Below are positions 13,001 to 35,387 of a stretch of 64,000 bases of DNA, piece after piece. A model generated the notes under the pieces. That model saw only the letters and a list, made by a program, of their open reading frames with translations, searched no databases and had not been told where the DNA came from. Position 1 is the first letter of the stretch; each line of letters opens with the position of its first letter. The stretch covers positions 3,542,501-3,606,500 of the forward strand of contig SMSO01000034.1 of the NCBI GenBank assembly GCA_004764695.1, given 5' to 3'. This DNA is from Schizochytrium sp. TIO01. Taxonomy: Eukaryota; Sar; Bigyra; Thraustochytrida; Thraustochytriidae. The position numbers and the translations under genes are program-made.

Positions 13001-14780
13001 ACCAGACTGGAGTATCTCCCATCGTTGGCGTGGGTACCACTTAGTACCAAGTTGGTCCTACTAACGCTAAGCTCGTATTATATATTATTAGGAGTGGCAT
13101 GCTCGGTTTCGTTTCTGGTGAAAAAGCCAACAATACGGAATGAAGGCTCTTCTTCCACACAGAGATGCTGCAACTGCGCCTAAACGTGTGGCCCAAAGCC
13201 AGCTAGCTCTCTGCAAGCGAAAGCTTAGAGCAGTGAGGCGGGAGGGCCTCAAGCACAGCTCACAATCCCTTCTAATCAGCTGAAAGGCGAGCCGGGCGGG
13301 CCTCGCGGGGGCAGGCAAATCGTCTCCCGCCGCCATAATCGTCTCAGTACCGTGGAGATCTTGGTCCCACATTACAGAACCTCATCAGGGTCCACCGTTC
13401 TCCCCCAAAAAGAACGGCCGCAAAGATCCGCCTATATTGCACGTAAGCACCGCGGAGCCCAAAGAACACCGGTATCATGGAGCGATGACTATCTTCTTTC
13501 CTTCTTCTTTCTCCTATCTTGGGCTATTAAGGCGGTGGATGTTAAAACTTTCATTCATCTTAACAATACCAGTTATCATGGCACTATGGCGAGTAAGTAT
13601 GATACTAACTCTAACTCTGGATAAGAAAAAAGAAAAACCTGCGTAGGCCCAATTGTTTCTTTACAAATTAATTATGATCTTTCAAAGTGCTTTAGTTGTT
13701 TCTTTATTTCTTCATTTGCTCTGTTTATATGATAGTCACACTCGCAGGCAGTCAGTCAGCTCGCTCGCCGCCAGAACTCCATCCCCGTCAGCCACGAGCA
13801 TCGTCCGCTGCCGCAGGGACGCTGCAGGGCAGCCTCTAGGCCCGCCCGCCGCCACGGTCGCCGATACACCTGGTGCCACGCTGCTGGGAAGCTGGAGAAG
13901 GTTGTGCAGTTGGCGAGCTTCTGCGGCTTCGCTCTCTCTCTCTTTTTCTCTTTTTGAATTCGAATTCAAAGTCGAATTCAACTCCAGTTCAAACTAAAAC
14001 TCGGCTGCTCACCGGTAAGGACGTCGCGCCCGTCTGAGCCTGCGTCAGCTGCAAGCTATAAAGGGAAATTGATCTTGTGGGCGTCGTCGTCATCGTTGCC
14101 GTTGTTGTTGCCGTTGCTTTTACTGCCGCTGTTTGAGCGCTGAGTTTCCTTCGTCTTCATCTTCGTCCTCGATCTCTTGGCCTTGTTTGGCTTCAGAGGC
14201 CGTCGCACGTGTACAGAAGGTCTGTTCGTTTGTGAGTTTTCCGGGTCGATTCGATTGGTCAGCGAGACAGTCAACTGGTCAGAAGTAGCTCAGGTCGTGG
14301 GAAATAGCCTCGAGGTCGTCGCGCGAACTGTGGTAACTCAAAGCGAGCTGGGGCTTGCCTGCGCTTAGACAAGAAGTTTTCTGTAACTGTCTTGACATTT
14401 CCTAAAGAGCAAGAGGAATATTATCTGCCTGTGCGTATTGTTTGTGCGAAGACATCGCCCTTCTGACCTCTTCTTCAGGTGTTGACGGGTGACACACATT
14501 TCAAGTTTGTGAATCTTTCTCCATATTATAATATAATATATACGCCGGCCGCGAGCGGAACAACTGCGGATCGGAGCCAATTCGCCAGTACTTTCTTTTG
14601 TTGGAGACAGAGCTCCAAAACCAAACACAAGTTGAGAGATCCGTACACGGCGCAGGGAAGTAAACAAAAAGGCGATTGAGTCATCATCTCGTTCATCTTA
14701 ACTGTTATTTTTGAAGAAGGAAATATACAATCAAAAAAATAGTGTAGTCAAGAAAGCAAAGTCCAAGGGCTTTGAGCAAA
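10031..14780. other. Gene-poor 4.7-kb region
   Basis: No recognisable gene. It contains GGTA/TACC motifs at 10954-10980 and near 11246-11257, and a related tract near 11441-11467. The left 3 kb are AT-rich. From about 13,700 to 14,370 the DNA becomes GC-richer with CpG-rich stretches, triple GAATTC repeats near 13,957-13,980 and a TATAAAG at 14057-14063, which suggests the promoter and leader of the actin-regulator gene that starts at 14781. All frames here are under 115 codons and mostly lack a good ATG or sensible composition. Confidence 0.5.
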
Positions 14781-17318
14781 ATGGAACATGTTGTCTATGA
14801 TCCGGTAGACCAAAAGCCGATGAAGCCGTCCGAGGCATACGCAACCTCGGATAACTTGTACTTTGCCTCGCTTGAGACACAGCAAATGTACTATCATCTC
14901 ATCGATAAAGGCTTCGAGGTTGTGGTAGAAGGAGGTAAACCGATTTTAAGGCCAGCTCAGGCGAAACGTATTTGGACCAAAGATATGAACCTGAGTAGGT
15001 CAAGCAAAGATGGCCACTATGTCCAGAGCGGTCTGGAGCCTGGCACATATACCTTTCAAGCCGAAGCACCCGATGTACACTCCTTGCTTGGATCACGTAA
15101 ATGTACGGGCACACTTCAGGTCACCTCGGGAGATGGGCGTAACAAAATTGTCCAAGCAAACTTCAATCTTGGCAAGGATTCGCAGATGTGGTCCCAGAAG
15201 TTTAGCGTTGAGGTGGAGCAACAAAATGCTACGATGGTTGTGGATTTCATAAACGCATCTTCTTTTGGTAAATCAATGAACGCTCACGCATCGTTGGATT
15301 TTCTTCCACTCTCCAAGTCAAAGAAGGATATGATCGAGGCTCGCCGAAAGTCTACCGCAGTGGCTAGAAACGGAGAGTATGTTGTGGAGCTCACCAAAGG
15401 TACTACAGGTGTAGGTATGACCTTGTCATGGGATAACCGCATCAAATCAGTGCTTATCCGCACAATTGAGGAGAATGGTGCTGCGCAGCGTACGCACAAG
15501 CTCAAGGTCGGTGATCGCATCAAAGGTATCCAGGGCCAGCGAGTGGATACCCTATCTTTCAAGGATGTTATTAAAATGCTCCGTAACATTCCTACCACTG
15601 TGGTTCTCCTCATGGAGGCCGCCCCGCCTGGCTTCAAAATGGAGGAAAAGAAACCTGGACGCAGGGTTCGACGTATAGACGCCCCGCCCCGGCCTCCTCG
15701 AGCTGCTCCGCCCGCTCGTCAAGGTGCACCCGCTGCCGCAGGAGGTCCAGCTCCTCCAGCTCCTCCACCTCCATCGAGAGCGAGTGGTGTGCCTCAGGTT
15801 CCGAGCACCCCAAGCCAACCACAGATGCCCCCCGCCATTCCAATTAACAGAACTCCTGCACCTCCGCCGCAACCTCAGGCCCGCACTCCTCCTCCCCCGC
15901 CCGTGAACACAAGTTCGGCCACTGGGGTTGCCGCAGCTGCCGCTGCTCTTGCTCAGGAGAAGAACGACTCCCCGCTGTCTCGAGATAATTCCATGAAGCG
16001 GCGATCCCGTCCTCCTCCACCCTCGAGACCTCGTCGCCCAAGCACACCAACAAGGCCTGCCGCATCCAAGTCTTTCTCCAGCAGCACGGCAGCAACAGCC
16101 CCCCCTCCCCAGCCGCCAGCACCACCCTCAAGGCCGGCAATGCCGTCATCTGCGGCATCCACAGTCTCGGCGCCTCCTCCTCCGACAAGAGCTCCGCCGC
16201 GGTCAAGCTCTGGCCGAAATCTCGTGCCACCACCCCCTCCGACTCTCTCAACTTCACAATCTTCACTTGGAAGCCAAAACTCTGCTCGTTCTGCGCCGCC
16301 TCCGCCTCCTGTGCCCTTGCACGCAACGTCCTCCAGCACAATGCCTCCACAGCCACCGACAAGAGTTCCCTCGATGCGTGGACCACCGCCGCCTGTGCCA
16401 GCGCCTGCTGCCTCTTCCTCAGCTCCTGCTCCCAGTGCGGGCAACGATGGCTTCGACAAGTACAGGCAAATGCTCAAGGTCGGCCTACCAGAAGGCGCTG
16501 TGCGCAACAAGGCGGCCCAAGATGGCGTGATGTTGCCTGATAGCTTCTTCTCTGGCGCGGGAGACCAGTCTGCAGCACCTGCAGCACCTGCAGCACCGGC
16601 GCCCCCGACGAGAACAGCAGCACCGCCACCACCGACGAGAACAGCAGCACCGCCACCGCCACCAGTGCAAAGCTCTGGAGGAGCACAAGATGCGGGAACG
16701 GCCCTTCCGCCAGGATATGAAAAGTATTCGCGCATGCAAAAGGCTGGACTGCCGGAAGGGGCAATTCTACAGGCTATGGCGAGAGATGGAGTTCAGCCTC
16801 CACCTGGATTTGGAGCACCAATGGCGGCAAGCGCGGCCCCGGCTGCATCAAGAGCCCCGCCGCCGCCGACACCAACGCCGAGCGCAGGAGGAGCTGGAGC
16901 ACCGGGAGGACTTCTTGCGCAGATTCAACAGGGAACACACCTCAAGAAGGCAGAAGCACCGCCTCCACCTCAGTCATCGTCTTCAGCTTCGGGTGGCGGG
17001 GGCAACGATCTGCTATCGGCGATTCAGAATGGAGTCAAGCTCAAGAAAGCAGCACCTCGCGAAGAAATACCAAATGGAGCAGCTGCGCCCTTGAACCCGC
17101 TTTTGGCAGCTTTACAGAATGCCAAGAAGGAAAATCTTCGCCACGTCGATGTGGACAAAGTGCAGGAGGAGCGTCGTACCTCGGTTGCACGTGGCAGCGC
17201 TGTTGGAGGAAACCCCATGTCTGCCATTGCGCAGGCTCTCGACGCCCGCAGAGACCAGATTGTGGGTGGTGATAGCAGTGATGAAGAATGGAGTGATAAC
17301 GATGAGTGGGCCCTCTAA
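14781..17318 (+). CDS. WASP-like Arp2/3 activator with PDZ, polyproline, WH2 and acidic tail
   Basis: An 845-residue protein that by its C-terminus is an actin nucleation-promoting factor. Residues 1-190 are an unrecognised, probably beta-rich region, not an obvious WH1. A PDZ domain follows at about 197-280, with loop VGMTLSW and later KVGDRIKGI. About 260 residues of polyproline come next (PPPPP runs, profilin/SH3 type). Two related motifs near 553-590 and 645-673 (KYRQMLKVGLPEGAV and KYSRMQKAGLPEGAI) resemble the CCDC53/WASH-subunit motif. WH2 actin-binding motifs are LLAQIQQGTHLKKA (about 709-722) and LLSAIQNGVKLKKA (about 743-756), with a possible degenerate third near 771-788. The end, from PMSAIAQALDARR, matches the central region of N-WASP and is followed by a Ser/Asp/Glu-rich tail with two tryptophans (DEEWSDNDEWAL). 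The architecture is unusual; the NPF function is an inference from these motifs. Confidence 0.9.
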   Translation: MEHVVYDPVDQKPMKPSEAYATSDNLYFASLETQQMYYHLIDKGFEVVVEGGKPILRPAQAKRIWTKDMNLSRSSKDGHYVQSGLEPGTYTFQAEAPDVHSLLGSRKCTGTLQVTSGDGRNKIVQANFNLGKDSQMWSQKFSVEVEQQNATMVVDFINASSFGKSMNAHASLDFLPLSKSKKDMIEARRKSTAVARNGEYVVELTKGTTGVGMTLSWDNRIKSVLIRTIEENGAAQRTHKLKVGDRIKGIQGQRVDTLSFKDVIKMLRNIPTTVVLLMEAAPPGFKMEEKKPGRRVRRIDAPPRPPRAAPPARQGAPAAAGGPAPPAPPPPSRASGVPQVPSTPSQPQMPPAIPINRTPAPPPQPQARTPPPPPVNTSSATGVAAAAAALAQEKNDSPLSRDNSMKRRSRPPPPSRPRRPSTPTRPAASKSFSSSTAATAPPPQPPAPPSRPAMPSSAASTVSAPPPPTRAPPRSSSGRNLVPPPPPTLSTSQSSLGSQNSARSAPPPPPVPLHATSSSTMPPQPPTRVPSMRGPPPPVPAPAASSSAPAPSAGNDGFDKYRQMLKVGLPEGAVRNKAAQDGVMLPDSFFSGAGDQSAAPAAPAAPAPPTRTAAPPPPTRTAAPPPPPVQSSGGAQDAGTALPPGYEKYSRMQKAGLPEGAILQAMARDGVQPPPGFGAPMAASAAPAASRAPPPPTPTPSAGGAGAPGGLLAQIQQGTHLKKAEAPPPPQSSSSASGGGGNDLLSAIQNGVKLKKAAPREEIPNGAAAPLNPLLAALQNAKKENLRHVDVDKVQEERRTSVARGSAVGGNPMSAIAQALDARRDQIVGGDSSDEEWSDNDEWAL

Positions 17319-17739: not shown

Positions 17740-19464
17740 TCATCCACAACGACCACCAGCACACCCACCCTTCTGCACATAGTCCTCGCCTGAGCGAGTT
17801 GTGATGGTGAGATCAACAAATGCTTCAGCATTCGTAGGGTGAATACCTAATACACGGTCATATAGGTCTTCTTTGGTAGCACCGAGATTGACTGCAAGAG
17901 CAAGGCCTTGCATAGTCTCACCAGCTGCAGGTCCAACAAAATGAAGACCTACTACCTTTTGCTCTGAAGGATCATCTCCCCCGCGCAGACATACCACCTT
18001 GGCCATGCACTGGCGTGGGTATTCAGTTCCATCATGTGACGTACGGTGTGTTGCAGAGATATGCAAGCTCTGCCATTCCATAATGTAGGTCTCCACATTT
18101 TCAGGACCAAGTTGTTCACATGCGGCCTCCTCACCAAGGCCCACACGGCCATACTCAATTGGCGTGAAGACTGTGCTTGGGACCATAAGGCTTGCAGCGG
18201 CGCTTACACCAATGAACTCGCTCACTGCGGTTTGTAAAAACTTATTCTTGCGCTTACCCTCAACAGGCGCAAGCATGTCTACAAGAACATCAGCTTGACG
18301 AATTGCAACAGGTGTTAGCTCGGGCATATCCAATGGGGTAAGAGCACAATCACCAAGAGCATAGATACCGGCCTGCGTTGTTTTAAATTGGTCATCTACT
18401 ACAATCTTACCCGACACGGAGTCAACTTTGATATTTACCTGCTCCAAGCCCAGACTGGCCACCTCCGGTGCTCGGCCTGTGCCAAATAGAACAGTGTCAA
18501 ATTCCTCTTCGTACTGAAATCCCATGCTATCTTCCATAGTCACGCGAATAGGACCATCCTCCTTTGTTCGTTCAAGTTTCACAGGTTGGGCCTGCTCTAC
18601 CTTCGCTCCATGTGCTTGCAGCAGTTCAAGTACTTTCCCGGCACATTGCCTGTCAAAAGCTGCCCCCCTGAGTGCTTTGCTGCGCACTGCCACAGTTGTA
18701 TCAAGCCCTAGGCCTGCAAGAAACCCCGCAATCTCTAGTGAAACATAAGAGCCTCCTACGCAAAGTGTACGTCCTGGAGACCTGGCTAGCGAGAAGATAT
18801 CGTCGCTTGTGACTCCGAACTCCTTCGCTCCTGGCACGTGGTCAGGGACTTTCGGGCGACCTCCCATCGCTAGAATGACGCCCTTTCGAGCCTCCATCTT
18901 GATGTTTTCGCCCGAGTTATGGTCCAGCAACACATTCTTAGCGCCGCCTTCAATCTGCAGACCCACTGCTCTAGATCTCACAAGCTGTACGTTTTTGTCA
19001 AGGCCAGAGGCGTACGAAAAGCTAAGTGATTTGACATGGTTTTGGACAGTCTTCACAATGTCATTCCAATCGCTTTGAAAATGTTCTCCGTCCCGAATTT
19101 CGCCTTGATCAGAACTGGCACTGAGGACCTTGGCAAGACCAAACGCAGCACCGTCAAGCAAAACATCGTCGCGAAGAGTAGCAGCGCGGTGAAAGAGATA
19201 CTTTGGAATGCAACCGACGTTGACACAGGTGCCACCGAAGCCGTAAGAAGTACCGCGGTCCGAAGGTCGAACGTGGTCCAAGAGTGCTACCTCAAAGCCA
19301 CGTTGAGCAAGGTTATTCGCACAAGCAATACCTCCAGAACCACCACCAACAACCACGTAATCAACGGCGGAAGGAAGAGCAGGACCCTGCAAAGCGGCAC
19401 CTAGGTCTAGACCGCCACCAGTGAAGAGGCCGCGCCGAGCAAGAGATGCTCCGTGGCGAAGCAT
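17740..19464 (-). CDS. High-molecular-weight thioredoxin reductase, Cys-only C-terminus
   Basis: An FAD- and NADPH-dependent disulfide reductase of 574 residues. The FAD-binding VVGGGSGGIACA is at about 38-49, the active disulfide CVNVGC at C80/C85, an NADPH-site VGGSYVSLE near 256-264, the second FAD motif ALGDC, and the catalytic base motif GIHPTNAEAF near the end. The protein finishes GGCAGGRCG, a second redox pair C568/C573 separated by four residues. That flexible tail is the mark of large thioredoxin reductases rather than glutathione reductases, and its spacing matches the apicomplexan (Plasmodium) enzyme rather than the animal GCUG selenocysteine tail. The first 20 residues (MLRHGASLARRGLF) are basic and hydroxylated, suggesting a mitochondrial presequence. 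Convergent with the actin-regulator gene. Confidence 0.95.
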   Translation of the reverse strand: MLRHGASLARRGLFTGGGLDLGAALQGPALPSAVDYVVVGGGSGGIACANNLAQRGFEVALLDHVRPSDRGTSYGFGGTCVNVGCIPKYLFHRAATLRDDVLLDGAAFGLAKVLSASSDQGEIRDGEHFQSDWNDIVKTVQNHVKSLSFSYASGLDKNVQLVRSRAVGLQIEGGAKNVLLDHNSGENIKMEARKGVILAMGGRPKVPDHVPGAKEFGVTSDDIFSLARSPGRTLCVGGSYVSLEIAGFLAGLGLDTTVAVRSKALRGAAFDRQCAGKVLELLQAHGAKVEQAQPVKLERTKEDGPIRVTMEDSMGFQYEEEFDTVLFGTGRAPEVASLGLEQVNIKVDSVSGKIVVDDQFKTTQAGIYALGDCALTPLDMPELTPVAIRQADVLVDMLAPVEGKRKNKFLQTAVSEFIGVSAAASLMVPSTVFTPIEYGRVGLGEEAACEQLGPENVETYIMEWQSLHISATHRTSHDGTEYPRQCMAKVVCLRGGDDPSEQKVVGLHFVGPAAGETMQGLALAVNLGATKEDLYDRVLGIHPTNAEAFVDLTITTRSGEDYVQKGGCAGGRCG

Positions 19465-22118: not shown

Positions 22119-25100
22119 ATGTTGTGGCATTCTTCGGACTCCGCGGAGGAGGTCTCTTCTGCAGGCGCCTTTCTAGGCGAGCAGGAGGTGGCTGAGGGCC
22201 CTCGCAGACGTGGCAGCTTGCCACAAGACCTCGGCAGCCTACACTCAGAAACCTCTCAAGAAGATAGCTTTGAAAGCGGAATTGGACTTCACTACGCAGG
22301 TAGCCGAGAGCTCTCTTTAGGCTCCTCAATACACCACATTCAGCACTCTCAACACAGCTCCAATGCAAGTAACAGCCACATCAGCGCCAATCTCAGCAAT
22401 AATATCAACAACAACAACAATGGTAGCGGGAATAGCAATGGCAACTGCTCGAGTCACCATTCATTTCATGCTCATAAGAATACAAGCCATCCAAGCCCAT
22501 GTATGAGTACGAGCTGCAGCGCATGTGGAGATAATAATATTGGAGGAGGCAATTCCCATACACATGGGAACGCTGTTTCAAGCGCATTGAGGAATTTATC
22601 ATTCGTGAGCGCTGCACAATGCGGTTCGCAAAGTCGTGGAGGTCAATCACACGCTTCAGAGACATCTGCTGACGAAAGGGTCCGCTTTAAACGCAAAACT
22701 TCTGTGTATTTAGAGAATAATACTATGGCACTCTTCGAAGAAGAAGAAAACGCCGATCACCCGGTCGATGGACCGTGTGGGTGTTTAGAAGAGACATTTA
22801 GTAGACCAGCAGCGATGGTTCTGGTATCTATATGGTTTGTTCTCAGCTGTATATTCTACATTAAACTTCGCAGGTCCATGAAGGGCTTCAGTGGCGGTGG
22901 CGACGTGGTGGCGCAAACTGGTGTCCACTTCCTTACAAGCGGCATTATAATGCTTCTTCATTCCACAATCATGTGGACAACAGGCCAACAAAAACACGAG
23001 GCCCTCTCGAAATTACTCAAAGAGACACCTGCGCCTGTATGGCTGGTGCTTGGTTTTGCCCACTTTGTGGGCCATGCACTCTTAATATGCGGCTTATCCG
23101 TTCTGACAGTGTCAAATATGCAACTTGCGCGACTTATTGAACCGGCTATTGCTGTTGCTATGGCGGGCCTTGGCTGGGTTCCACAGAGTCATGCACCTCT
23201 AACATCAACCCAAATGGCCTTCGGTGCTGTTCTTGCAGGTGGTGGTTTGCTGGCTGCACTCCCCTCGCACGAAGTATTTTCTGGGGTTGTTCTCATTTAT
23301 TTGTCTAGCTTCTTATTGCAGTGGCGCGGGCATGCTGTCCGCAGGATGATGCAGACAGTACATGTCGACGCTTGTTTTGTGGCGTTTGGTATTACTGCTG
23401 TGGTTGGTTCTTTCATTGCCATGTTGGTTCTCCTTCTCCTCTACACCACTGGGCTTTCTGTTTTTTCGGGGTCTGTTAATCTTGAAACTGGCCTTTATTA
23501 TTTCGGAGCTAATGCGGTAAGCCTTCTCCTTACACAAGTTTATCACCATGGTGCCCACGAGGGATTGAAGCTCTTGAAGCGAGTTCTCACTGCTGCAATT
23601 GCTGCTTATATTCAATATGAACATATCACTCAAAGTCAATGGATCGGTGTTGCTGTGGTGGCGATCGGCTGGGTCGGCCTTGATATGGATCGTCAAATCG
23701 CAAACTCAAGGCGAAGTAGAATTCTTGGAGTGTTAGTTGCTCTTCTTTTGTTGGCCGTCATATCTCTCGGTGGAAGTTTACAAGAACAGTATGGCCCAGA
23801 AACCTGGCTACAACAGCGCTCTACCAAGCCATTTGCACCGGGAGTCAGCGAAGATGGGCGAACTGAAGAAGCTCGTCCCTTTTGCGAAATCTATGAGGAT
23901 CAGCTTTACAGTATTTGGGCGTATCCGTATGGCCCTGATCCCAGTGTAACGCGTCGCTGTCCTACTGAAGTTGTGTATTGTGCATATACTGAGTGCTTAA
24001 ATCATTTTGCAGGTGCGCGGCGACTCAACCTTGCATCTTTGGCTAAGGGAACACCTTACGAAGATTTCGTACGTTACCATATGTGGTATAAAATAAAACA
24101 CAAGAGGCAATTCGTACATCATGTCCAGTCCGTTGCAATGCTTTCTCTGCTTTTGAAAAAACCTGGAATTTGCGTACGTATTATTGGTGATATGCGATGG
24201 CACTGTCATGAAGACCGGAACTGGCCTTCTCTCGACTATGATCCAGAGAGTGGCGTGACCCTGCCTCACTTTATGCCCCATCGACCTGTGATTTTGCATG
24301 ATGAATTTACTTCATTTAGTTATGTTTCACGCATGAAGCGTGTAGTTGGTGTGGACCTTGGTGATGAACTTCAAGCATTCGCTGGACTCTCGTTTGTCCC
24401 TTATCTCACCCATTTCACCGATCGAGATCAAGGACTACCCAACTCGCATGGCCACATCTTTATGAATTCATGGTTTGGACCCTCCGTTCGCTGGCCACCC
24501 AGTAACGCTCTTAATCCTGTAATGGTTTCGTTACATACCAGTCCAAAGTTTCGACGCACCTTGCAGGCACAAAATTTTACTTACCTTCGACGATACAACA
24601 CAATATACGGCGCGATTGGCGCGCGTGAACATGCAACCCTAGATTTCCTTCGCGCAAACGGAGTTGATGCATATTTCTCCGGCTGCTTTTCAACCATTGT
24701 GGATATTACTAAAGATGCTACGACCAGGTTACGGAACAAAACATTCTTGGTGGATGTGGCACGTCTTGAGCTTGTGCCTAAAGAAATTCGTGACGTTGCA
24801 GAACGTCGGACAGTGCTTCCTCAGACGCGTGGGCTGCAAGACGAGGAATCTCTTCATTTAAATGCTTTTGAACTCTTACGCACTTTCGCAACAGAAGCTA
24901 GGCTTGTAGTAACCTCAAGAATTCATGTTGGCCTTGCTGCAATGTCACAAGGTGTTCCTGTTGTGTTTCTCAAGCCGCCCCCTGGGGCTGCCGCAACAAC
25001 TACGGATGTAACAGGTGCCACAGGGGCCGGTATGAATGAGGTAATGACTTATTTCCATGTGCTGAGTAAGGATCAGCCTCTTCGGAAAAACTTCAATTGG

Positions 25101-26183
25101 AGTGATCCTCTCCCCAATCCAGGCAACCACATTGTTGACCGCCACCGTGCCAGTTTTTGGAGAGTTGTCTCGAAGCGTTCTCATTTCTATGCTGACACTG
25201 CACATCTCTTTGGTGTAGTTCCTCTGGTGCGTCTCGGCCAAGGTCAAAAGTATGCCAACAAAGTGTCTCATCACACTTTTCACTTAGCCTTGCCGCATGC
25301 TGACGCCGTAACAGCCTCAACCATCCAGCTTGCTGAAAGTGTTTTTAGACATCACCCAAACGCGAAATTAGTTGTTCACTGCAATGATTTTGGTGTGCGG
25401 CACACTGACCTCGTTAACTTTGCCTTGGTGGGCTATGATGTTGTTGTTGAACCATTTGATCTCGTTCAGCAATTACGCCAGTTTCACCTAGATCATAAGC
25501 TCGTAAGACGCTTTGTCAAGCACATCAAAACGAACCCAGATGACATTTCCATTCTGCCTGTTCTTGCTTTGTGGCTTCAAGGTGGAGTGTTTTTACGTGA
25601 ACATGACTCTTTGATTACAAATACAATCCCTCATTCCATATCTGCTGCATATCAACCAGATTACAGCATCCTTATGTTCCCCAAGAATTCGCCGATTTTA
25701 CTTCGTGTGGCTGAACTCTTTCTACGGAATCCTCAATTGGCTTTGGATAATGCCCTCAACCAGGCCATCAATGAGATCTCAGTGATCACTAGTCCTCACC
25801 ATGAGGCGCCCTTCGACAGACCTCTTCCTCTTCAACAAACATTGCAGGTTGGGGTGGAAGATAACGATTTCGAAAACCCCGAAAATAGCTTACAACAAAG
25901 TGAAGAAAAAGAACAAAATGAAATTGTGGAATTCGATGACACTATTCTGCAGCAGGGATCTCCCGTCGCGCCTCCTGCCGATGCTCCGACTTTTGTATCT
26001 GCACCAACTTCTTCAGGCACTGTCTTACCTGAAGGTACGAAGGACCATTCAAGAAACTTTCAAATTATACGACTTTCTGAGGGCGAGTATTCAACTGGAC
26101 CTTGTGTCAATTCTACGATAGTATGTACTAATCTCTTTGAGACTTCGTGTCTGTTTTGCGACTCTCCGTGGGGCCCAATGTAG
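22119..26183 (+). CDS. Transporter / polysaccharide pyruvyl transferase-like / glycosyltransferase-like fusion
   Basis: A single 1354-residue frame, with the first in-frame ATG at 22119 (MLWHSSDSAEE). Residues 1-225 are disordered and rich in Ser, Asn and His. Residues about 230-550 hold roughly ten hydrophobic helices arranged like a DMT/triose-phosphate or nucleotide-sugar translocator, beginning IWFVLSCIFYIKLRR and ending ILGVLVALLLLAVISL. From about 570 to 990 the sequence fits the polysaccharide pyruvyl transferase family (WcaK/Pvg1 type): FMNSWFGPSVRW near 776, IGAREHATLDFLRANGVDAYFS, and VVTSRIHVGLAAMSQGVPVVFL near 928. Residues about 1050-1210 look like a DXD-type sugar transferase of the GT32/A4GALT kind: FRHHPNAKLVVHC, then LALWLQGGVFLREHD where the usual YLDTD would be, so its metal site is altered. 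If functional, it would probably act in the Golgi. The frame has no internal stop or shift. Confidence 0.85.
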   Translation: MLWHSSDSAEEVSSAGAFLGEQEVAEGPRRRGSLPQDLGSLHSETSQEDSFESGIGLHYAGSRELSLGSSIHHIQHSQHSSNASNSHISANLSNNINNNNNGSGNSNGNCSSHHSFHAHKNTSHPSPCMSTSCSACGDNNIGGGNSHTHGNAVSSALRNLSFVSAAQCGSQSRGGQSHASETSADERVRFKRKTSVYLENNTMALFEEEENADHPVDGPCGCLEETFSRPAAMVLVSIWFVLSCIFYIKLRRSMKGFSGGGDVVAQTGVHFLTSGIIMLLHSTIMWTTGQQKHEALSKLLKETPAPVWLVLGFAHFVGHALLICGLSVLTVSNMQLARLIEPAIAVAMAGLGWVPQSHAPLTSTQMAFGAVLAGGGLLAALPSHEVFSGVVLIYLSSFLLQWRGHAVRRMMQTVHVDACFVAFGITAVVGSFIAMLVLLLLYTTGLSVFSGSVNLETGLYYFGANAVSLLLTQVYHHGAHEGLKLLKRVLTAAIAAYIQYEHITQSQWIGVAVVAIGWVGLDMDRQIANSRRSRILGVLVALLLLAVISLGGSLQEQYGPETWLQQRSTKPFAPGVSEDGRTEEARPFCEIYEDQLYSIWAYPYGPDPSVTRRCPTEVVYCAYTECLNHFAGARRLNLASLAKGTPYEDFVRYHMWYKIKHKRQFVHHVQSVAMLSLLLKKPGICVRIIGDMRWHCHEDRNWPSLDYDPESGVTLPHFMPHRPVILHDEFTSFSYVSRMKRVVGVDLGDELQAFAGLSFVPYLTHFTDRDQGLPNSHGHIFMNSWFGPSVRWPPSNALNPVMVSLHTSPKFRRTLQAQNFTYLRRYNTIYGAIGAREHATLDFLRANGVDAYFSGCFSTIVDITKDATTRLRNKTFLVDVARLELVPKEIRDVAERRTVLPQTRGLQDEESLHLNAFELLRTFATEARLVVTSRIHVGLAAMSQGVPVVFLKPPPGAAATTTDVTGATGAGMNEVMTYFHVLSKDQPLRKNFNWSDPLPNPGNHIVDRHRASFWRVVSKRSHFYADTAHLFGVVPLVRLGQGQKYANKVSHHTFHLALPHADAVTASTIQLAESVFRHHPNAKLVVHCNDFGVRHTDLVNFALVGYDVVVEPFDLVQQLRQFHLDHKLVRRFVKHIKTNPDDISILPVLALWLQGGVFLREHDSLITNTIPHSISAAYQPDYSILMFPKNSPILLRVAELFLRNPQLALDNALNQAINEISVITSPHHEAPFDRPLPLQQTLQVGVEDNDFENPENSLQQSEEKEQNEIVEFDDTILQQGSPVAPPADAPTFVSAPTSSGTVLPEGTKDHSRNFQIIRLSEGEYSTGPCVNSTIVCTNLFETSCLFCDSPWGPM

Positions 26184-26655: not shown

Positions 26656-28122
26656 ATGTCGGCCCTGAGTGCCGCGCGGAAACACATGACGGCCGCTAAG
26701 GGCGCCCTAAAGACTTCGCTCTTCAAATGGAGTCCAGACTACATCTCGGCAGCTCATCTTTACGAAAAAGCTGCTGTTTCCTTCAAAGCTGCAGGTGACC
26801 CCGAGCAAGCGGGAGATGCGTACAAGTGTGCTGCAGAAGCCAATTCCAAAGGTGACAATGAAAATGCGGCCGCCAAGTGCTGGGAATCCGCTGCAGAAAT
26901 GCACCTGAGCATCTTCCGAAACCAATCTAAAGGTATCGAAGGTGGTCTTCAGCAAGCCAGAACAGCTGCAGACTACTACAGCCAAGCTGTGATGATTTAC
27001 CGCGAATCAGGAGCAGCTAGCCAGGCGTCCACAGCTCTTAGCAAAAAGGGGCAGGTTCTTGCAGACGCCGCGGCAACGCTTCCAGAGGCACACAAGAAGC
27101 GCGACGCACTTCTCACGGAGGCACTCGAGTGCCTCATGACTTCTTGCGAAATTCTCGAAATTGCCAACAAGCTTGTTTTTAGCAAGGACACTTACCGCAA
27201 CACTTTTAACCTAGTTGTACGTATGCGACGCTGGTCAGATGCCCTCCAGGTCCTTAATAAGATGATACCAGTGTACAAGGAGCTCAACCAGACAGCTGGA
27301 GGATTCAAGCTGCGCTTGAGCGCAGTAATTATTCAACTTCAAAGGAATGATCTTACAGCAGCTAAAGCTTCTTTTCGAGAGGGTTTTGATGATACAGCGT
27401 ACCTCAGCTCTGACGAGTGTGCGGCTGCTGAAGATTTGCTGCGGGCATGGGAGGACATGGACGAAGATGCTGTGCGGAAGGTAATTGCCCGACCTGTATT
27501 TCAATTCTTAGAACGCGAAGTTGCGCTGGTGGCGCGTGACCTAAGCCCATTTAACAGCTCTGCTCAACCACGAGATGTCCCATTGGCAAGTAGTGCTACC
27601 ACTGGCTCCGGGGCAGGAGCAGGTGCTCGCGCATCTCTTGCTACAGCAAGTTATGCTCAACCGGGACCAGCCGCTATGGATGCGAAGATTGTCACTTCGT
27701 CTAAATCTGACGCAATGCCAGCTAAGACCACAGCTGCATCTACCCCAACAGGTGAGGCTGATGCGGTTTCGGATGCTAATCGTCAAAGCTTGTTCGCCCG
27801 GAAGCCACAGCTGGCACCAGCGCCACCGGCTCCGGTTATAGCTGAGGCAACTCCCATTTCGAGCGAGTTTGAGGCAGAACAGATGCCCATGGCTGCACCG
27901 GAACCTACGCCAGCACCCAAGACGGCATCACTGACGAGCACTGCTGCGCTGGACCACAGCGTGGAAGCTGCCACGTCGCAGCTTGCCTCCTCTTCACTGT
28001 CCGATAAATCTATGCCCTCAGACTCTGCTGCAGGGGAACCAACTGCTCACTCACAAAGCACATCGCTTCCGCATGATGCAAATGATGATGACGAGGACGC
28101 AGATCTTGACTTTCTGCGTTAA
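26656..28122 (+). CDS. Gamma-SNAP (soluble NSF attachment protein) with long C-terminal tail
   Basis: Adaptor that helps the ATPase NSF disassemble SNARE complexes after membrane fusion. The ATG at 26656 gives 488 residues. Residues 1-300 are the TPR-like helical-repeat SNAP fold: AAHLYEKAAVSFKAAGDPEQAGDAYKCAAE near 32-61, AADYYSQAVMIYRESGA, LVFSKDTYRNTFNLVVRMRRWSDAL, and the gamma-type ending DEDAVRKVIARPVFQFLEREVALVARDL. The family is usually about 310 residues. Here about 185 extra low-complexity residues (Ala, Pro, Ser, Thr) follow, ending in an acidic patch with a terminal Leu-Arg (DDDEDADLDFLR). The acidic end recalls the NSF-activating tail of alpha-SNAP, but the intervening linker is unusual. 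It is tandem with the fusion gene and convergent with the Tcd-like gene. Confidence 0.93.
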   Translation: MSALSAARKHMTAAKGALKTSLFKWSPDYISAAHLYEKAAVSFKAAGDPEQAGDAYKCAAEANSKGDNENAAAKCWESAAEMHLSIFRNQSKGIEGGLQQARTAADYYSQAVMIYRESGAASQASTALSKKGQVLADAAATLPEAHKKRDALLTEALECLMTSCEILEIANKLVFSKDTYRNTFNLVVRMRRWSDALQVLNKMIPVYKELNQTAGGFKLRLSAVIIQLQRNDLTAAKASFREGFDDTAYLSSDECAAAEDLLRAWEDMDEDAVRKVIARPVFQFLEREVALVARDLSPFNSSAQPRDVPLASSATTGSGAGAGARASLATASYAQPGPAAMDAKIVTSSKSDAMPAKTTAASTPTGEADAVSDANRQSLFARKPQLAPAPPAPVIAEATPISSEFEAEQMPMAAPEPTPAPKTASLTSTAALDHSVEAATSQLASSSLSDKSMPSDSAAGEPTAHSQSTSLPHDANDDDEDADLDFLR

Positions 28123-28585: not shown

Positions 28586-30436
28586 TTATGCAGACTCGTT
28601 CGCTTGGGTATCAACTTGATGTTCACCCTCCTTGCGGCCCTGGAGAGTGAGCTTGACCACAGTCTCCCGAAGCTCAGAGGCCTCAATCAAAATTCCAGGG
28701 TACAAGATCTCTACAGATTCCTCGGAACCGTCCTTCAGCTTGCAATCAAATTTCATGCCCGTGCGGTTCATGGATTTGAGTTCTGCTGAGATGGCAGAGG
28801 GGAGATCGCCATAAACCTGAACCAGTGTCAAATTGTCCTTAGCATGATCTTTGTTCATGTGCGTAGTGGCCCGTTGACAACCAGCCTGGAAAGACTTCTC
28901 GCTCGTAACCTCCTTGCGGCGTGTAGCTTGGTCACGCACACTTCCCATGAGGCGCACAGAGAAGTCGTACTCCTGTTTCGAGATGCCAAGGTTTACAGGA
29001 GTTGGCAGTTTACGCTCGGAGTGGATCTTGAGAAGTTTATCATATCCAGAAGGAGCGCAAATAACAAGGTTATGGGGTGTGAGGGGGCGGTCAAAGCGCC
29101 ACATAATGAGCTGGAACTTGGTTCCGTCGCCCGGCTTCGTGCCGGATACTGGGCAACGCAATCCAAACTGGGAGGCGATAACCTCAACATCCTCTTCACT
29201 GACATCATCGAGGTTCCAAGACTTCCACGCGGCATCCTCAGCCTCATTCTCCGGTGCACTGGCAGCCAAAGTTTCCTTAATCTTCTTCAAGTTAGAGCGG
29301 AACTTAGAGTAGAGTTTGTGGGCGCCACGCTCTTTCATCCGAGGAGCAGAGAGGGGCTCAAACGGTTGTTGAGCAAGGTTGGTAATGACACGGGAAGCCA
29401 TCGACATGCCAAAGATAGCCGGGATAGGGCCAAGCACAGGCATGATTCGCACACGGAAGTTTGCCACAGCTCCAAGGTTGTCTGGCTGTTCTTGAGCAAC
29501 TTCCTCATCTAGAGGGAGCAAGTTCACACGTGCAGTCTCAGACGAGTAGAGCACTTCAATTTTAGAGCTTTCGTCAATCAAAGCCTCGGAGCCAGCCTCC
29601 ATAAACTTCTTACGGATCAGCCAGCGCAGCTTAGATGCAATTGGGTCACGGATAACATCACCGAGAGAGCAAAAGTGCAGACGAGTTGGGTCAGTGCGGG
29701 CTCCGGCGGCCATAGAGCTGATGACTGGAATTTTGTGCTCTACGCAATACGCCAGTAGGTCGGTTTTTGTGTTGGAGTCGTCGATACAATCCACAACGTA
29801 ATCAGGTTCCCCAGCAAGCAAGCGATCAGCTTCCTCGCCAGTGAACATTTCGTTGCGAGCATCGACGTGACACTGAGGCATAAAAGCAGCGATATGGCGC
29901 TGGAGAGCACGCACCTTGGGCTTACCAACATCGGAACGGTCTGCAACCGCATGCCGGTTCAAAGAGGAGAGGGTAACATTATCAAAGTCAATGATACGGA
30001 GACGGCGAACTCCGGAGCGAGCTAAGAAATGAGTGCAGTGAGATCCTACACCTCCAGCACCAACCACGATAACAAAACTTTCCTCGAGACGTTTCTGGCC
30101 CTCGTCACCGAGGAAGACGCGGCCGCGTGAGAGCTGTTCGTCAAGAAGCTCGATTTCGCTTTCTGGCAAAGGTGGTAACACAGATGTTTTTGAAACCTCG
30201 TGAGATTCCACAACACATTCACTTTGCTTTTGCGAAGAAGTCTCAGCGACGCCAGAATTTCCCACACGAGATGTTGCGTTTATTGCCGCTGATGAAAACT
30301 TGGCAGCTCGCTGGCGAGTCTGGAGTTCCTTCGTAATCGCAACAGTGGCCAAGGCCCCAACTGCAGCACTTGTACAAGCTACGATAGCCAAAAGTGCTGT
30401 GGAGCTGCTTGAGGAGGTGCTGCTTGAGGAGGACAT
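28586..30436 (-). CDS. tRNA threonylcarbamoyladenosine dehydratase (TcdA/Tcd type) fused to a DUF2470-like domain
   Basis: An E1-like (ThiF/MoeB) enzyme that converts t6A37 of ANN-decoding tRNAs to its cyclic form, using ATP. The start is the ATG at 30436 (616 residues). A Ser-rich N-terminus leads into a hydrophobic helix (TALLAIVACTSAAVGALATVAI, about 13-34), as in the yeast Tcd1/Tcd2 proteins of the mitochondrial outer membrane. The nucleotide loop GAGGVGS is at about 126-132, the DFDNVTLSSLNRH motif follows, and VVDCIDDSNTKTDLL and GARTDPTRLHFCSLGDVIRDP are typical of the family. The Tcd-type C-terminal part (FGLRCPVSG through RPLTPHNLVIC) is present. The added tail at about 530-600, starting TTHMNKDHAKDNL, resembles DUF2470, a domain found next to haem-binding and PNPOx-like proteins. 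This combination is unfamiliar to me. Cofactor use of the tail is unknown. Confidence 0.9.
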   Translation of the reverse strand: MSSSSSTSSSSSTALLAIVACTSAAVGALATVAITKELQTRQRAAKFSSAAINATSRVGNSGVAETSSQKQSECVVESHEVSKTSVLPPLPESEIELLDEQLSRGRVFLGDEGQKRLEESFVIVVGAGGVGSHCTHFLARSGVRRLRIIDFDNVTLSSLNRHAVADRSDVGKPKVRALQRHIAAFMPQCHVDARNEMFTGEEADRLLAGEPDYVVDCIDDSNTKTDLLAYCVEHKIPVISSMAAGARTDPTRLHFCSLGDVIRDPIASKLRWLIRKKFMEAGSEALIDESSKIEVLYSSETARVNLLPLDEEVAQEQPDNLGAVANFRVRIMPVLGPIPAIFGMSMASRVITNLAQQPFEPLSAPRMKERGAHKLYSKFRSNLKKIKETLAASAPENEAEDAAWKSWNLDDVSEEDVEVIASQFGLRCPVSGTKPGDGTKFQLIMWRFDRPLTPHNLVICAPSGYDKLLKIHSERKLPTPVNLGISKQEYDFSVRLMGSVRDQATRRKEVTSEKSFQAGCQRATTHMNKDHAKDNLTLVQVYGDLPSAISAELKSMNRTGMKFDCKLKDGSEESVEILYPGILIEASELRETVVKLTLQGRKEGEHQVDTQANESA

Positions 30437-31791
30437 GGTGCCTTCCACAGACTTTTCAGCTCCTAGCGACTAGGGCTGTTCTTAATATGAGCTGGGCTCA
30501 CGCCAAAGTTTTGTAAGCTTGGTGTTCGTATAACTTAGTCAAATTTAGTACTAGTTCTTGCCTGCGAGGTCGCCACTTGCGAGCGCCAATGGGTGTCTGG
30601 CCAAGAGAGCTTACCAATGTTTTACCCTCTATGTCTCGCAAAGCAGGACCATAGCTATAATTAAACCAAATTTTAAGTTACCTGTGTTCCCTAAGTATTT
30701 TCTATGACAATATTGGACAATATTGTGATTCATAGTGGCTAACGGGATCCTGATCTAAAATTTGCGGGAGGCTATCCATGATTTATATCATAAATCAGTC
30801 ATCTAGGTAAGTCTCAGAGAATGAGTTGCAACTTCTAGTATGAAGTGATAATTGCAAGCAAATCAGGCATAGCAAACTGAAATTGAAGTAATTCGAACAG
30901 TTTAAAACCGTTAAGCTTATCGATAGGGACACCTTAGTTGTGTAAAAGATAAGCTCATAAGATTAAAAAGCCCTGTAAACTCTCTTTCCAACATATGCGA
31001 TGGTAAAAATTAGACATTAATTTGCGTTGGTTTACATAGGCCTGCTCAAAAAAATATCTTTGCTGAAGATTCTGATATTCTAAATGCCTAGATCGTACGA
31101 GAATGGCACTACCTATCTTTCAAGCAACATGTCGCGGCCTTCCCCGTCTCCTCGCTTATCACTTGCTCTTCCCAAGTTGCTCTTCTTCATCTCCAGATTT
31201 TCATATATGGTCCTCATAATAATTGAAAGAAATAAAAGAGATTTTTGGTTTCCTGTCACAACTTTCTATGCTCAGCTTTTCTTCCTTGACCCCTAGTGCG
31301 TCAGTTTTCTAGTAACCTCCAGGTCTTTGAAGTCATAGTACTTATATCCCAATGAAAGCAGCATTCACCTTGTGGATCCATCACGATGAAGCTGGTTTTG
31401 TAGATGATTCCTTTCCCACCTCACATTCCTTTCTTAATTAAAAACGTTTTCCTTTTTTCTTTACTCAGGCTCTAAAATAAAAAGTAGAGAGTGATACTCC
31501 ACGTCTACCAATAATGTTACAAGTCGTGACAAATTAAATTAAAATGTACAGGCCTATATATAATTAAAACTTTAAACATTCATCGACAAATGAAGAGAAA
31601 ACAGTGATGAGACAGATCTCAGTCTCTCTTGTGTTGTCTCTCTCCGTTGGAGCGAGCGTGCGCGAGAGCACGGGAAAAGCAACTTGGTTGTCTCCCATAG
31701 AACCCAGGCAGGGAGGCAGGCTATCCTGCTGCCACTGCTTCTTTCCCTTGGCCGCTGTTTAGGCTTTTTCATCTTCAGGTTGGCGACAGTC
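30437..31791. other. Divergent intergenic region
   Basis: About 1.35 kb between head-to-head genes. It has a perfect 10-bp direct repeat (GACAATATTG twice, 30706-30725), a small hairpin (GATTTAT/ATAAATC, 30780-30796) and a TATATATAA at 31555-31563, about 230 bases before the plus-strand ATG. No gene is supported. Confidence 0.45.
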
Positions 31792-33667
31792 ATGGCCGGC
31801 TCCGCTACTTTAGGCTCGGTGCTCCTCGTGACGGCCTCTCTTCTAGCGGTTCATACACTCGCTGCTCAAGATGCTGTCGAGCTTGGCAGTCGTGCACTTT
31901 CATCAATGTATGGCCCTGATAATGTAAATGTTGCGTTGTACGGAGATGTAGACAAGCTGGGATACGTGTATGCTAAGTCAACGTTTTCCCGTACTTTTGA
32001 AGCAGGTGCTGATGCGCAAGGACATGTAATGCGTATGATTGTGGATTCTTCGTCAAAATTGACATACGCCCCATGCACAGGTTGTACGGAGGAAGATTGC
32101 GGGTCTCGACGTATGGAGAGGCTCGTGAATGAGCTACACCAGACTATGAGATTGGGATGCCATGACCAGGTATGCCCAGCGTCAGCGAGGAATTGCCTCG
32201 CGACAAATCAAGGCAGGACAGATGACTGCTTCATGGAGCTCGAATACCCTGATGAAAACTGGCTAGAAGGAAACTTTGTGCAGACTTTTCTCAATTTGAG
32301 CTCCAGCTTGAGGTTCACTCTTTTAGGATGCGTGTGGGATATGAGTGCACCATTTCGAAACATGTACGCAGATGGATCTCTCGCATTGGCACAGTCCTCA
32401 GAGACATTGGCGGTTGGGATCGGCCGTAGCAATGGATGGTCGATGTGCCTAGCTCCTGGAGGCTACTATGGCGGTTCCCTGGAAGTTGGCAAGTCTTTGC
32501 AATTTAGCGATGCCGAGGACGAGATGTGGATTGAGCTCCATGAAGAACGTACAGACCCTCTTAACCAATGGAAGGGATATTATGTGAGTGCTCTTGCAGA
32601 CCCTCAGATGAGCATTGGAAACTCTACGATATCAATTGAAAAACATACCCATGCTCTCATAAATACAGGTTCCTCTCTGACGTTTCTTCCTGAGGAGCTT
32701 TTTAATGATGCACGCGAAGCGTTGTTCAACTTTTGTGATAAAAGCAACCCCTCAACAGACGCAGACGGTGCAGATAGCTCAATCTCACGTTGTGCTGGCA
32801 ATAAGCGTGTTACAGGTCGGCCGAGCTCACTTGCATGCTACGACGTGACTGGCACAGACTTTTTCCGTAAGAACGCTGAGCTCTTCGCGAATAATGATGG
32901 TCCAAACAAGTATCGTGTATACAAACTTCTTGATAGCTTCCCGAACGTGACATTTCACTTCCATGCTGAGAGCAGCAAGGTTGGTGGACCTTCAATTTTC
33001 AAGTTGTCGGTACACCCCAAAGAATACATGTTTTATGAAGGATCAGGCGTTTACTGCGCGGGCATCATGCGCGATACCAGCACCTCTGGTCCAACCAAGG
33101 GCGATGTAACCCTTGGTGTCAACGTTCTTCGTGGCTGGAACATAACCATGGATTTACGCAATTTCCGCCATGGCACAGAGGAGTGTCGTTTCTCATTTAA
33201 GCCCTGCCTCCGCAAGTTCGATCTCGCGGTAGATCAGGACACTCAGAGTGAAACTACTTCCAATTCGTGGGCCATGCATGCTGGCGCACAGTCAGGTGTC
33301 GCAGCATTTTTCGGGCTCTTCTCTTTGACCATGTGTCTCCTCTGTTGTATTCGCTGCTTGTGCGTGCGCCGGGGCGTACAATATGAGGCAGTCAATGAAT
33401 TTGGCACAGGTAACACTGACCATGCTCGCGCAGTCGAAATTCCGCGTTTGGGTAAATTCAGCATTGGTTCAGATGACGACCTTCCTTCCGATGATGAGCA
33501 TGATGAGTTGGCGTTGGAAATGGACGGTGGGGACGACGACGAAGATGAAGACTTTGTTTCTGAAGCCGCAAGGGTTCGTCCTGTTAATGACAGCCGCAGT
33601 AGCAGCAATAGCAAAGGTCGCGGAGGCCGAAACTCTGGAGCTGTAAAACCAGGCTATCCTCGTGGAA

Positions 33668-33698
<31 letters not shown>

Positions 33699-33777
33699 AA
33701 ATGGCGGTTTTTTGTTTGACCAAGATGATTTTAGTGACGATGATGATGCCTCGAGCAGCTTTACGCGCCGACGATAA
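31792..33777 (+). CDS. Membrane-anchored pepsin-like aspartyl protease homologue, catalytic sites altered
   Basis: The ATG at 31792 opens a clear signal peptide (MAGSATLGSVLLVTASLLAV, cut likely after LAA). The luminal/extracellular part of about 470 residues has the two-lobed pepsin (A1) layout with many cysteines and several N-glycosylation sites. The first active-site motif is IVDSSSKLTYAPCTGC (Asp at about 84; DSS instead of DTG/DSG). The second is ALINTGSSLTFLP near 286-298, with Asn where the catalytic Asp belongs. GDVTLGVNVLRGWNITMD matches the conserved region before the C-terminus. One membrane helix follows at about 500-527 (FFGLFSLTMCLLCCIRC), then a cytosolic acidic tail with nine consecutive Gln and DDDD runs. 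With one Asp lost it is probably a pseudoprotease or binding protein. 661 residues, no frame break. Confidence 0.88.
33670..33696 (+). repeat. (CAG)9 trinucleotide repeat in coding sequence
   Basis: Nine consecutive CAG codons encode nine glutamines in the cytosolic tail of the protease-like protein. The repeat is pure, so its length is likely to vary between strains. Confidence 0.95.
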
Positions 33778-35387
33778 AGTTTATAGTTTTCTTCGTCAAC
33801 TTTTTTCTCTGCAAATTATTCCATGCGTGCTTTCCTCCACAACTAGGTACTACTGCAACAGTATTCATGTGCGTGGAAAAAACTGTATTGCTGCCTTAGA
33901 TAGTATAAACGTACCCTTCTTCACAACCTGGATTATTTTTACAGGTTTTTAAAACTAAAGGAAATTTCAGTCTTTTTCTCTGTACTGCCTCCGACATGTC
34001 TATACTGAAGGGAAACGATGCCTACGCAGTTCTTGTGCACAGCTTTCCACAGTGCTGGTCTTGAACTGCTTCCCAGGCATGATAAAATACGGAAACGAAC
34101 ATAACAGATGAAATCGACTCTTCTCCAACCCCCGCTCGAGCCAGATATAGATATATTCGCTGTTGACCTCCATTATTACTATGTGCTATAACATTTTAAA
34201 AGTTCAACATCTCTAATCTATGCAGCGCGTGCATAGCATCAAAGCTCATCAATATTGTCACAACACAGACTCTCGCGTTCCATAGTTAGTAAATCAGATC
34301 CTATTAGTAATTAGTTATGGTTGGTTAGTAATCAACCATACCATTGTATATGGCTTGCGCCATCAGAACTTTGAAGCTAAATGTAGTCGAGCAGAATATA
34401 TTAAGAGCAGGCTCTTTTGAAATTAATTGCTAACAGAACATTCTGAGTTTCGTTTATCATCAACAGAAGTTAATCTGTAGAAACCATTACTAACAAAACT
34501 AGGTAGGTTATGCTCGTTCTCTTTCGGTATGGCTCTTGCGCCTGCCCTTTCACCCGTTTTAAGGTAGCTAGGTAGGTAGTTCCTCATTTTATATTTTCTT
34601 TTTCTTTTTATTGTATTCTTTCCTTTTTCCTTCTTTTCTGATGTCAGAGACCTTCGAAACCTGGTCGAGGCCTATACGATGCTCACTCAGGTCCGAAACT
34701 TCATATCAAGCTGTATCGCCAGAGATTAAACAGTCCCCATATTCACAAACACACATACAAATGTGCAATTAGAGCAGTCCTTCCCATTCGAAATGACTCC
34801 GTGATCGCGGTATACTTTTTAGTCCTGCAATTTTGGTTCATCTACCCCTAACTATTCTTAATAACACTTCTAGCGCGACTCTGACCGCGATCAAAACCAG
34901 AATCGCTACGATTAGCGTTGCGACCGCTCTCTCACGAAGTCCGGGAGTGGCACCGCCCGAGCGACAGGACTTAAAACGGGCTAAGTTGTTAAGGTACTCG
35001 AGCCTGTCTCCTGTACTTGTGGGGTTTATTCTTGCTCGTCATCTAACAAGGTGGCTGCAGGTCTGAGATTTCATCGCTATCCAGGCGTGACAACTTCTTT
35101 CCTGAGCTCTGAGTCCTTGCAGGTGCTTTGTTCAAACAAAGTCACAGCATATCACAGTGCCACGAGTTGATTTGCTGTCGTGATTTTTGGGACCCACTTG
35201 TTGCTCACCAACTTCTCGCGGAATAGAATAGTCACATCTGAAGCAGTCACGACCAGGACATCATTCTTACGGTTGTCTAGTCCACCAAACTGGTCTGTGC
35301 AGGTCAAGAACATTGACAAAGTGACCACAAATCGATAGCAACTGGGGGCCAACCTTACAGGCCATGCGCGAGGGGCATTTGACGTCA
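33778..35387. other. Intergenic region between two plus-strand genes
   Basis: About 1.6 kb with no supported gene. GGTA motifs at 34499-34510 and 34562-34580. Small hairpins at 34218-34236 (CTATGCA/TGCATAG) and 34316-34340 (TATGGTTG/CAACCATA). The rest is AT-rich with pyrimidine tracts near 34,590-34,640. Confidence 0.45.

Follow-up and report, generated by a model that had tools for sequence, protein, structure and literature searches.

Can a membrane carrier, a polysaccharide pyruvyltransferase and glycosyltransferase-like sequence be joined in one polypeptide, and if so, what might such a protein do? The question is raised by a long open reading frame in a 64,000-nt stretch of DNA from the thraustochytrid Schizochytrium sp. 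TIO01 (assembly GCA_004764695.1, contig SMSO01000034.1, positions 3,542,501 to 3,606,500; the whole stretch is called the window here, and coordinates refer to it). A previous reading of the letters, referred to below as the original prediction, had seen in this frame a transporter, a pyruvyl transferase and a GT32/A4GALT-like segment, and our analysis supports all three families in that order. The fusion is real and conserved, and is built from known families. We also consider it reasonably probable that the protein is a single-chain enzyme of the secretory pathway that combines supply of phosphoenolpyruvate (PEP) with pyruvyl transfer, phosphate being the counter-ion. The parts of the gene, all on the forward strand, are as follows.

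22119..22790 (+): N-terminal extension, residues 1-224, rich in Asn, Ser and His (sequence; comparison with Hondaea)
22791..23702 (+): carrier like the triose-phosphate/phosphate translocator (TPT), ten membrane helices, residues 225-528 (structure prediction, profiles, PF03151-positive fused relatives)
23130..23132 (+): R338, at the position of TPT Lys203, A. thaliana numbering (alignment; pocket as in excerpts of PMC6981301)
23577..23582 (+): K487-R488, at the position of TPT Lys359-Arg360 (alignment; pocket from the same excerpts)
23706..23792 (+): eleventh membrane helix, residues 530-558, starting with the basic sequence SRRSR (structure model, hydropathy, charge)
23871..24218 (+): GT32-derived module A, residues about 585-700, without DXD (HHalign via relatives; the part best conserved in Hondaea, 72%)
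24291..25253 (+): polysaccharide pyruvyltransferase module, PF04230, residues about 725-1045 (Pfam, predicted structure, profiles)
24624..24626 (+): R836, at the motif position of CsaB R148 and Pvg1 R217 (placed by motif; invariant with ten short PF04230-type proteins)
24912..24926 (+): TSRIH motif, with R934 and H936 at the positions of Pvg1 R337 and H339, or CsaB R306 and H308 (R-x-H profile-aligned to 5ax7)
25263..26096 (+): GT32-like module B of GT-A fold, residues about 1049-1326, with GGVFLREHD replacing GGVYLDTD (model, HHalign)
26103..26159 (+): C-terminal cysteine motif ending in CLFC, residues 1329-1347 (alignment)

A single ATG-started frame of 1354 codons runs without interruption from 22119 to 26183 (a GTG start 36 bases further upstream would add 12 residues), while stops in the remaining five frames of this interval number 45 to 82. 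The three-part polypeptide in one frame that had been noticed earlier is therefore confirmed. That the frame is one gene is best supported by its collinear alignment with FCC1311_039512, a protein of 1257 residues from Hondaea fermentalgiana (order Thraustochytrida), which is 61% identical across residues 225-1215 of the window protein and has the same domain order and C-terminal cysteine motif. Identity between the 2 proteins is 28% in the N-terminal extension and 38% in the tail, 55% in the carrier and 50% in the eleventh helix and linker, and 72, 63 and 63% in module A, the pyruvyltransferase and module B, respectively. A further record, P0003, of 413 residues, differs from window residues 942-1354 at three positions only and ends at the same residue; its source is MMETSP, which we take to be a transcriptome project. 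Since P0003 starts at an internal methionine, it points to transcription of the gene's 3' part without proving a full-length mRNA.

A homologue search with the window protein alone found Hondaea as its sole match, and would have made the fusion appear private to thraustochytrids. Two profile searches, which gave overlapping sets of 20 and 37 proteins and together with the window make up the set P0001-P0052, corrected this impression. Each homologue search scored about 8000 candidates, so that the numbers of relatives given here are lower bounds; of the 51 relatives, 20 were scanned directly with Pfam and the remainder were taken from precomputed Pfam annotations. We observed a carrier together with a PF04230-type enzyme in at least 11 proteins, namely those of the window and Hondaea, P0004, P0005, P0009, P0014, P0032 and P0035-P0038. 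P0014 is from the diatom Thalassiosira sp. AJA248-18 and P0036 from Balamuthia mandrillaris (Amoebozoa), and P0009, which has MMETSP among its sources, groups with Thalassiosira and Skeletonema proteins.

In a tree of 51 enzyme cores, from which P0003 was excluded, the fused proteins are scattered over several deep groups, and the fused label requires seven changes, six of them forced by starred branches. This scatter may reflect either an old fusion with subsequent losses and fragmentary records, or several fusions. Some of the unfused records do look truncated, eg, P0040 opens with sequence resembling the last carrier helix of P0038. The carrier tree, of 11 rows, has starred groups of window/Hondaea/P0004, P0009/P0014, P0035/P0038 and P0036/P0037. 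The first and last of these recur in the enzyme tree; there, nine unfused proteins join P0009 and P0014 in an 11-row starred group, while P0035 and P0038 are placed together with P0040 and P0041. P0004 (1095 residues, jgi) keeps the Lys-Arg pair of the carrier, and its enzyme has GKKV where SRxH is lost. Two other members of the set carry GT8 (PF01501) in precomputed Pfam annotation, P0019 with PF04230 and P0020 with a pyruvyltransferase-like core in the profile search.

Sequence searches with the full window protein against solved structures, and against NCBIfam, gave no match, and the identities of parts lacking a match were settled by alignment profiles and structure prediction. The predicted structure of the carrier is a ten-helix DMT fold, for which the nearest solved structure is the triose-phosphate/phosphate translocator 5y78. 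The window carrier did not reach the Pfam cut-off for TPT (PF03151), reaching EamA only at E 0.0074, and for this reason we call it TPT-like; among the ten fused relatives, seven were above the TPT cut-off, two below it, and Hondaea had no match. Bringing relatives into the profile strengthened the assignment, in that a profile from seven fused carriers, including that of the window, matched 5y78 at E 9.6e-25, which bears out the DMT/TPT-type carrier named in the original prediction. Excerpts of PMC6981301 describe a phosphate-binding pocket in TPT that contains Lys203 and Lys359-Arg360, in the fourth and ninth helices, respectively. These positions are largely conserved among the 11 fused carriers, and the window carrier has basic residues at all of them, although it differs from TPT in having Arg for Lys203 and also Leu at the position of F262. 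A mapping for TPT Tyr338 fell on an incorrect residue and was discarded. Plastid relatives of the carrier exchange PEP for phosphate, and PEP would be the substrate of the fused carrier. The translocator 5y78 and the plastid PEP/phosphate translocators resemble it in fold, group profile and most phosphate-binding positions, but they are stand-alone proteins (for the plastid ones, excerpts of PMC6981301), whereas the window carrier runs on into an eleventh helix and an enzyme.

The original prediction counted about ten membrane helices, which holds for the carrier; the model of the protein has 11. An additional segment above a hydropathy threshold of 1.25 lies between carrier and enzyme in ten of the 11 fused proteins, the aligned segment of P0014 being short and reaching 1.09. 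The loop preceding it has at least three Lys+Arg residues, again in ten of 11 (one in P0009). When loop boundaries were carried over from the window model and both termini excluded, the loops that would be cytosolic under an N-in orientation held more Lys+Arg than the opposite loops in all 11 proteins (8 versus 3 in the window). With eleven helices, the N terminus and residues 559-1354 would lie on opposite sides of the membrane, the latter, under N-in, in the lumen, so that the helix count, as had been anticipated, gives an orientation: the enzyme part is probably luminal and the N-terminal extension is predicted to be cytosolic. In the unfused relatives P0010 and P0011, a single helix is predicted near the N terminus, and hence their enzyme would face the same side as in the fused proteins. 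By analogy with Pvg1p, the compartment would be the Golgi. Two basic islands, GPRRRGS(L/V)PQ and RFKRK(T/S)SVYL (the latter spotted by eye), are common to window and Hondaea amid the poorly conserved N-terminal extension, with RLKRKLSVF as the P0004 counterpart of the second; these are possibly a retention or phosphorylation signal.

The middle part of the protein, whose placement in the pyruvyltransferase family had been set as the point to check, matched PF04230 in Pfam at E 3e-7, with 31.1 bits against a cut-off of 25.3. The predicted module has a Pvg1-like fold and its best VIA-align match is yeast Pvg1. A profile of the enzyme regions reached 5ax7 among solved sequences at E 0.14 to 0.18 only, a weak match overall, and we therefore base the link to Pvg1 jointly on Pfam, motif and fold. 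Roles in PEP binding are given for CsaB R148, R306 and H308 and for Pvg1 R217, R337 and H339 in excerpts of PMC10435577. The corresponding R836, R934 and H936 are present in both window and Hondaea, and among the thraustochytrid-type proteins (window, Hondaea and P0004) the window alone has both the carrier and the enzyme motif sets. Transfer of pyruvate from PEP is the predicted activity of the window protein.

The single GT32-like segment of the original prediction proved to be two GT32-derived modules, of which module A had been missed. Module B aligns over its full length with DXD-bearing relatives that Pfam places in PF04488/PF04572 (HHalign E 1.3e-33), in support of a GT-A fold and GT32 descent; confidence in its structure model is low from around residue 1222 onward, and the C-terminal piece of the window protein had no match in the Pfam scan. 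D-x-D is kept in 13 of the 36 proteins, the window included, in which module B is readable. Profile alignment gives E-H-D for the window, which leaves some room for a variant metal-binding motif, but from its sequence module B is probably catalytically dead. Module A gave negative results by HHalign directly against module B of the DXD-bearing relatives and against the pyruvyltransferase (probability 0.2% in each case). It was linked at 98.7% to copies in P0035, P0036, P0037, P0038, P0040 and P0041, three of which (P0038, P0040, P0041) are PF04488-positive at this copy, and the six-copy set was in turn linked to module B at 90.9%; module A is thus assigned to GT32 through these copies. The sets for DXD-bearing module B and for the pyruvyltransferase also scored strongly against each other in HHalign, but this was an artefact of overlapping cuts and was discarded. 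We infer that the 2 modules would hold the acceptor rather than transfer sugars. They differ from GT32/A4GALT proteins (PF04488, PF04572) in that module B of the window is without canonical DXD and without Pfam match. The cysteine motif ends in CIFC in 10 of the 16 alignment rows that reach it. In P0031 and P0032, methyltransferase-type matches lie C-terminal to the GT32-like module, possibly a further fused step.

According to the mechanism that we propose, the TPT-type antiporter would bring PEP from the cytosol into the lumen, and the eleventh helix would join it to a luminal ketal-pyruvyltransferase flanked by the 2 GT32-derived modules. The enzyme would move pyruvate onto a glycan, putatively a surface or scale polysaccharide, and free phosphate, which would leave by the same antiporter and drive the next round of antiport. 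As PEP import and phosphate release would stand at 1:1, the reaction itself could keep antiport in balance, and the idea that the carrier feeds the fused transferase is consistent with the sequences. We hold more tentatively, at somewhat below an even chance, that this is a self-contained PEP-in/phosphate-out machine old in eukaryotes, with two GT32-derived modules gripping the acceptor. Pet1p and Pet2p of fission yeast are TPT-family proteins, and CsaB of Paenibacillus alvei is a bacterial enzyme that is not known to have a carrier attached. Release of phosphate in the CsaB reaction is described in excerpts of PMC10435577, and the R148-, R306- and H308-type positions of this ketal-pyruvyltransferase are found in the window. 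In S. pombe, Pvg1p is a Golgi membrane protein, and the membrane transporters Pet1p and Pet2p bring PEP to the lumen (excerpts of PMC4872226 and PMC6801904); the window enzyme shares the Pvg1-type fold and PEP-binding motif, but carriers and enzyme are separate proteins there and one chain here. Also, Pvg1p is type II with an N-terminal membrane domain (excerpts of PMC10435577), whereas the window enzyme has GT32-derived modules on both sides.

Several observations weigh against the proposed mechanism. In the carrier, the Lys-Arg pair is replaced by Q-C in Hondaea and by S-R in P0037, and 4 of the 11 fused carriers have Phe at a position thought to hinder PEP. Loss of the pair in Hondaea, failure of the window and Hondaea to reach Pfam TPT, and the lower identity between them in the carrier than in the pyruvyltransferase would all fit a carrier that no longer transports PEP and serves only to anchor the protein in the membrane, to retain it in the Golgi or to export phosphate. 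We regard this explanation as unlikely, since deep divergence has spared the ten-helix region and most positions of the pocket, and one helix, as in P0010 and P0011, suffices for an anchor. Module B lacks the canonical DXD in the window, in Hondaea (GGVFLRNHN) and also in diatom-type relatives. The carrier might instead be a nucleotide-sugar transporter that serves the glycosyltransferase module, the pyruvyltransferase obtaining PEP from another source, but the fusion persists despite loss of DXD in the window, Hondaea, P0009 and P0014, the phosphate-binding positions are largely retained, and with the group profile the E-value for TPT is better by about 20 orders of magnitude; we think this a little less likely still.

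The pyruvyltransferase also departs from expectation in places. The Hondaea protein scored 22.0 for PF04230, under the cut-off, and there is no clear window counterpart of the PEP-contacting Lys (CsaB K328, Pvg1 K361); the ungapped position is not Lys, and K952 lies six residues upstream in a weak profile alignment to 5ax7. An LPGG-containing loop after RxH, nearly invariant in the alignment of relatives, is absent from window and Hondaea. RxH itself is lost in P0004, which comes after Hondaea as the closest fused relative and whose branch length is 2.05 in the enzyme tree as compared with 0.65 in the carrier tree. Together with module B lacking its DXD, these features could mean that the enzyme is decaying in this lineage and the protein becoming a pseudoenzyme with some other role. 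Retention of R836, R934 and H936 in window and Hondaea, and the 63% identity of their pyruvyltransferase modules, argue otherwise, and we judge decay improbable, marginally more so than the nucleotide-sugar explanation. The motif losses, the missing LPGG loop and the Phe residues nevertheless mean that a step may be missing or altered in any single member. Sequons are denser in the C-terminal part of 5 of the 11 fused proteins and sparser there in 6, and for this reason sequons were not counted in support of a luminal enzyme. Although P0003, the only near-identical transcript-derived protein, spans the last 413 residues alone, a long frame created by assembly or gene-model error from merged neighbours is very improbable in view of ten fused relatives, including the full-length collinear Hondaea protein and P0009 with its MMETSP source.

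The conserved fusion links a phosphate-antiporter-type carrier to a PEP-using transferase by genetics alone, and names a candidate PEP carrier for a diatom, thraustochytrids and Balamuthia. Were the coupled PEP-supply and pyruvyl-transfer function correct, fusion would have identified a PEP carrier of the secretory pathway in lineages for which we found none described, and pyruvate ketals would be predicted on the glycans of, for instance, diatoms, which are not mentioned in the searched text of a review (PMC6801904). No description of a carrier-pyruvyltransferase fusion was found in the open-licence literature of PubMed Central, where absence is not proof. Hand-over of a substrate across a membrane becomes testable in one purified protein.

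Pfam scanning covered 10 of the 14 other frames of at least 300 residues in the window, and identified the following.

1021-3441: class I tRNA synthetase, cysteine type
17740-19464: disulphide oxidoreductase
31684-33777: TAXi_N
35364-36608: TBC RabGAP
37676-39043: Serinc
46760-50674: ABC transporter with two ABC and two ABC2 membrane stretches
58770-62252: PHTF-like

Directly downstream of the fusion gene, on the same strand, is a gene for a SNAP-family (soluble NSF attachment protein) member with a long tail (26656-28122), followed on the reverse strand by a ThiF-type protein with a DUF2470 domain near its C terminus (28586-30448). A frame of 848 residues at 14772-17318 (forward strand) combines PDZ, CCDC53 (WASH complex subunit) and WH2 in one chain, a combination that appears unusual.

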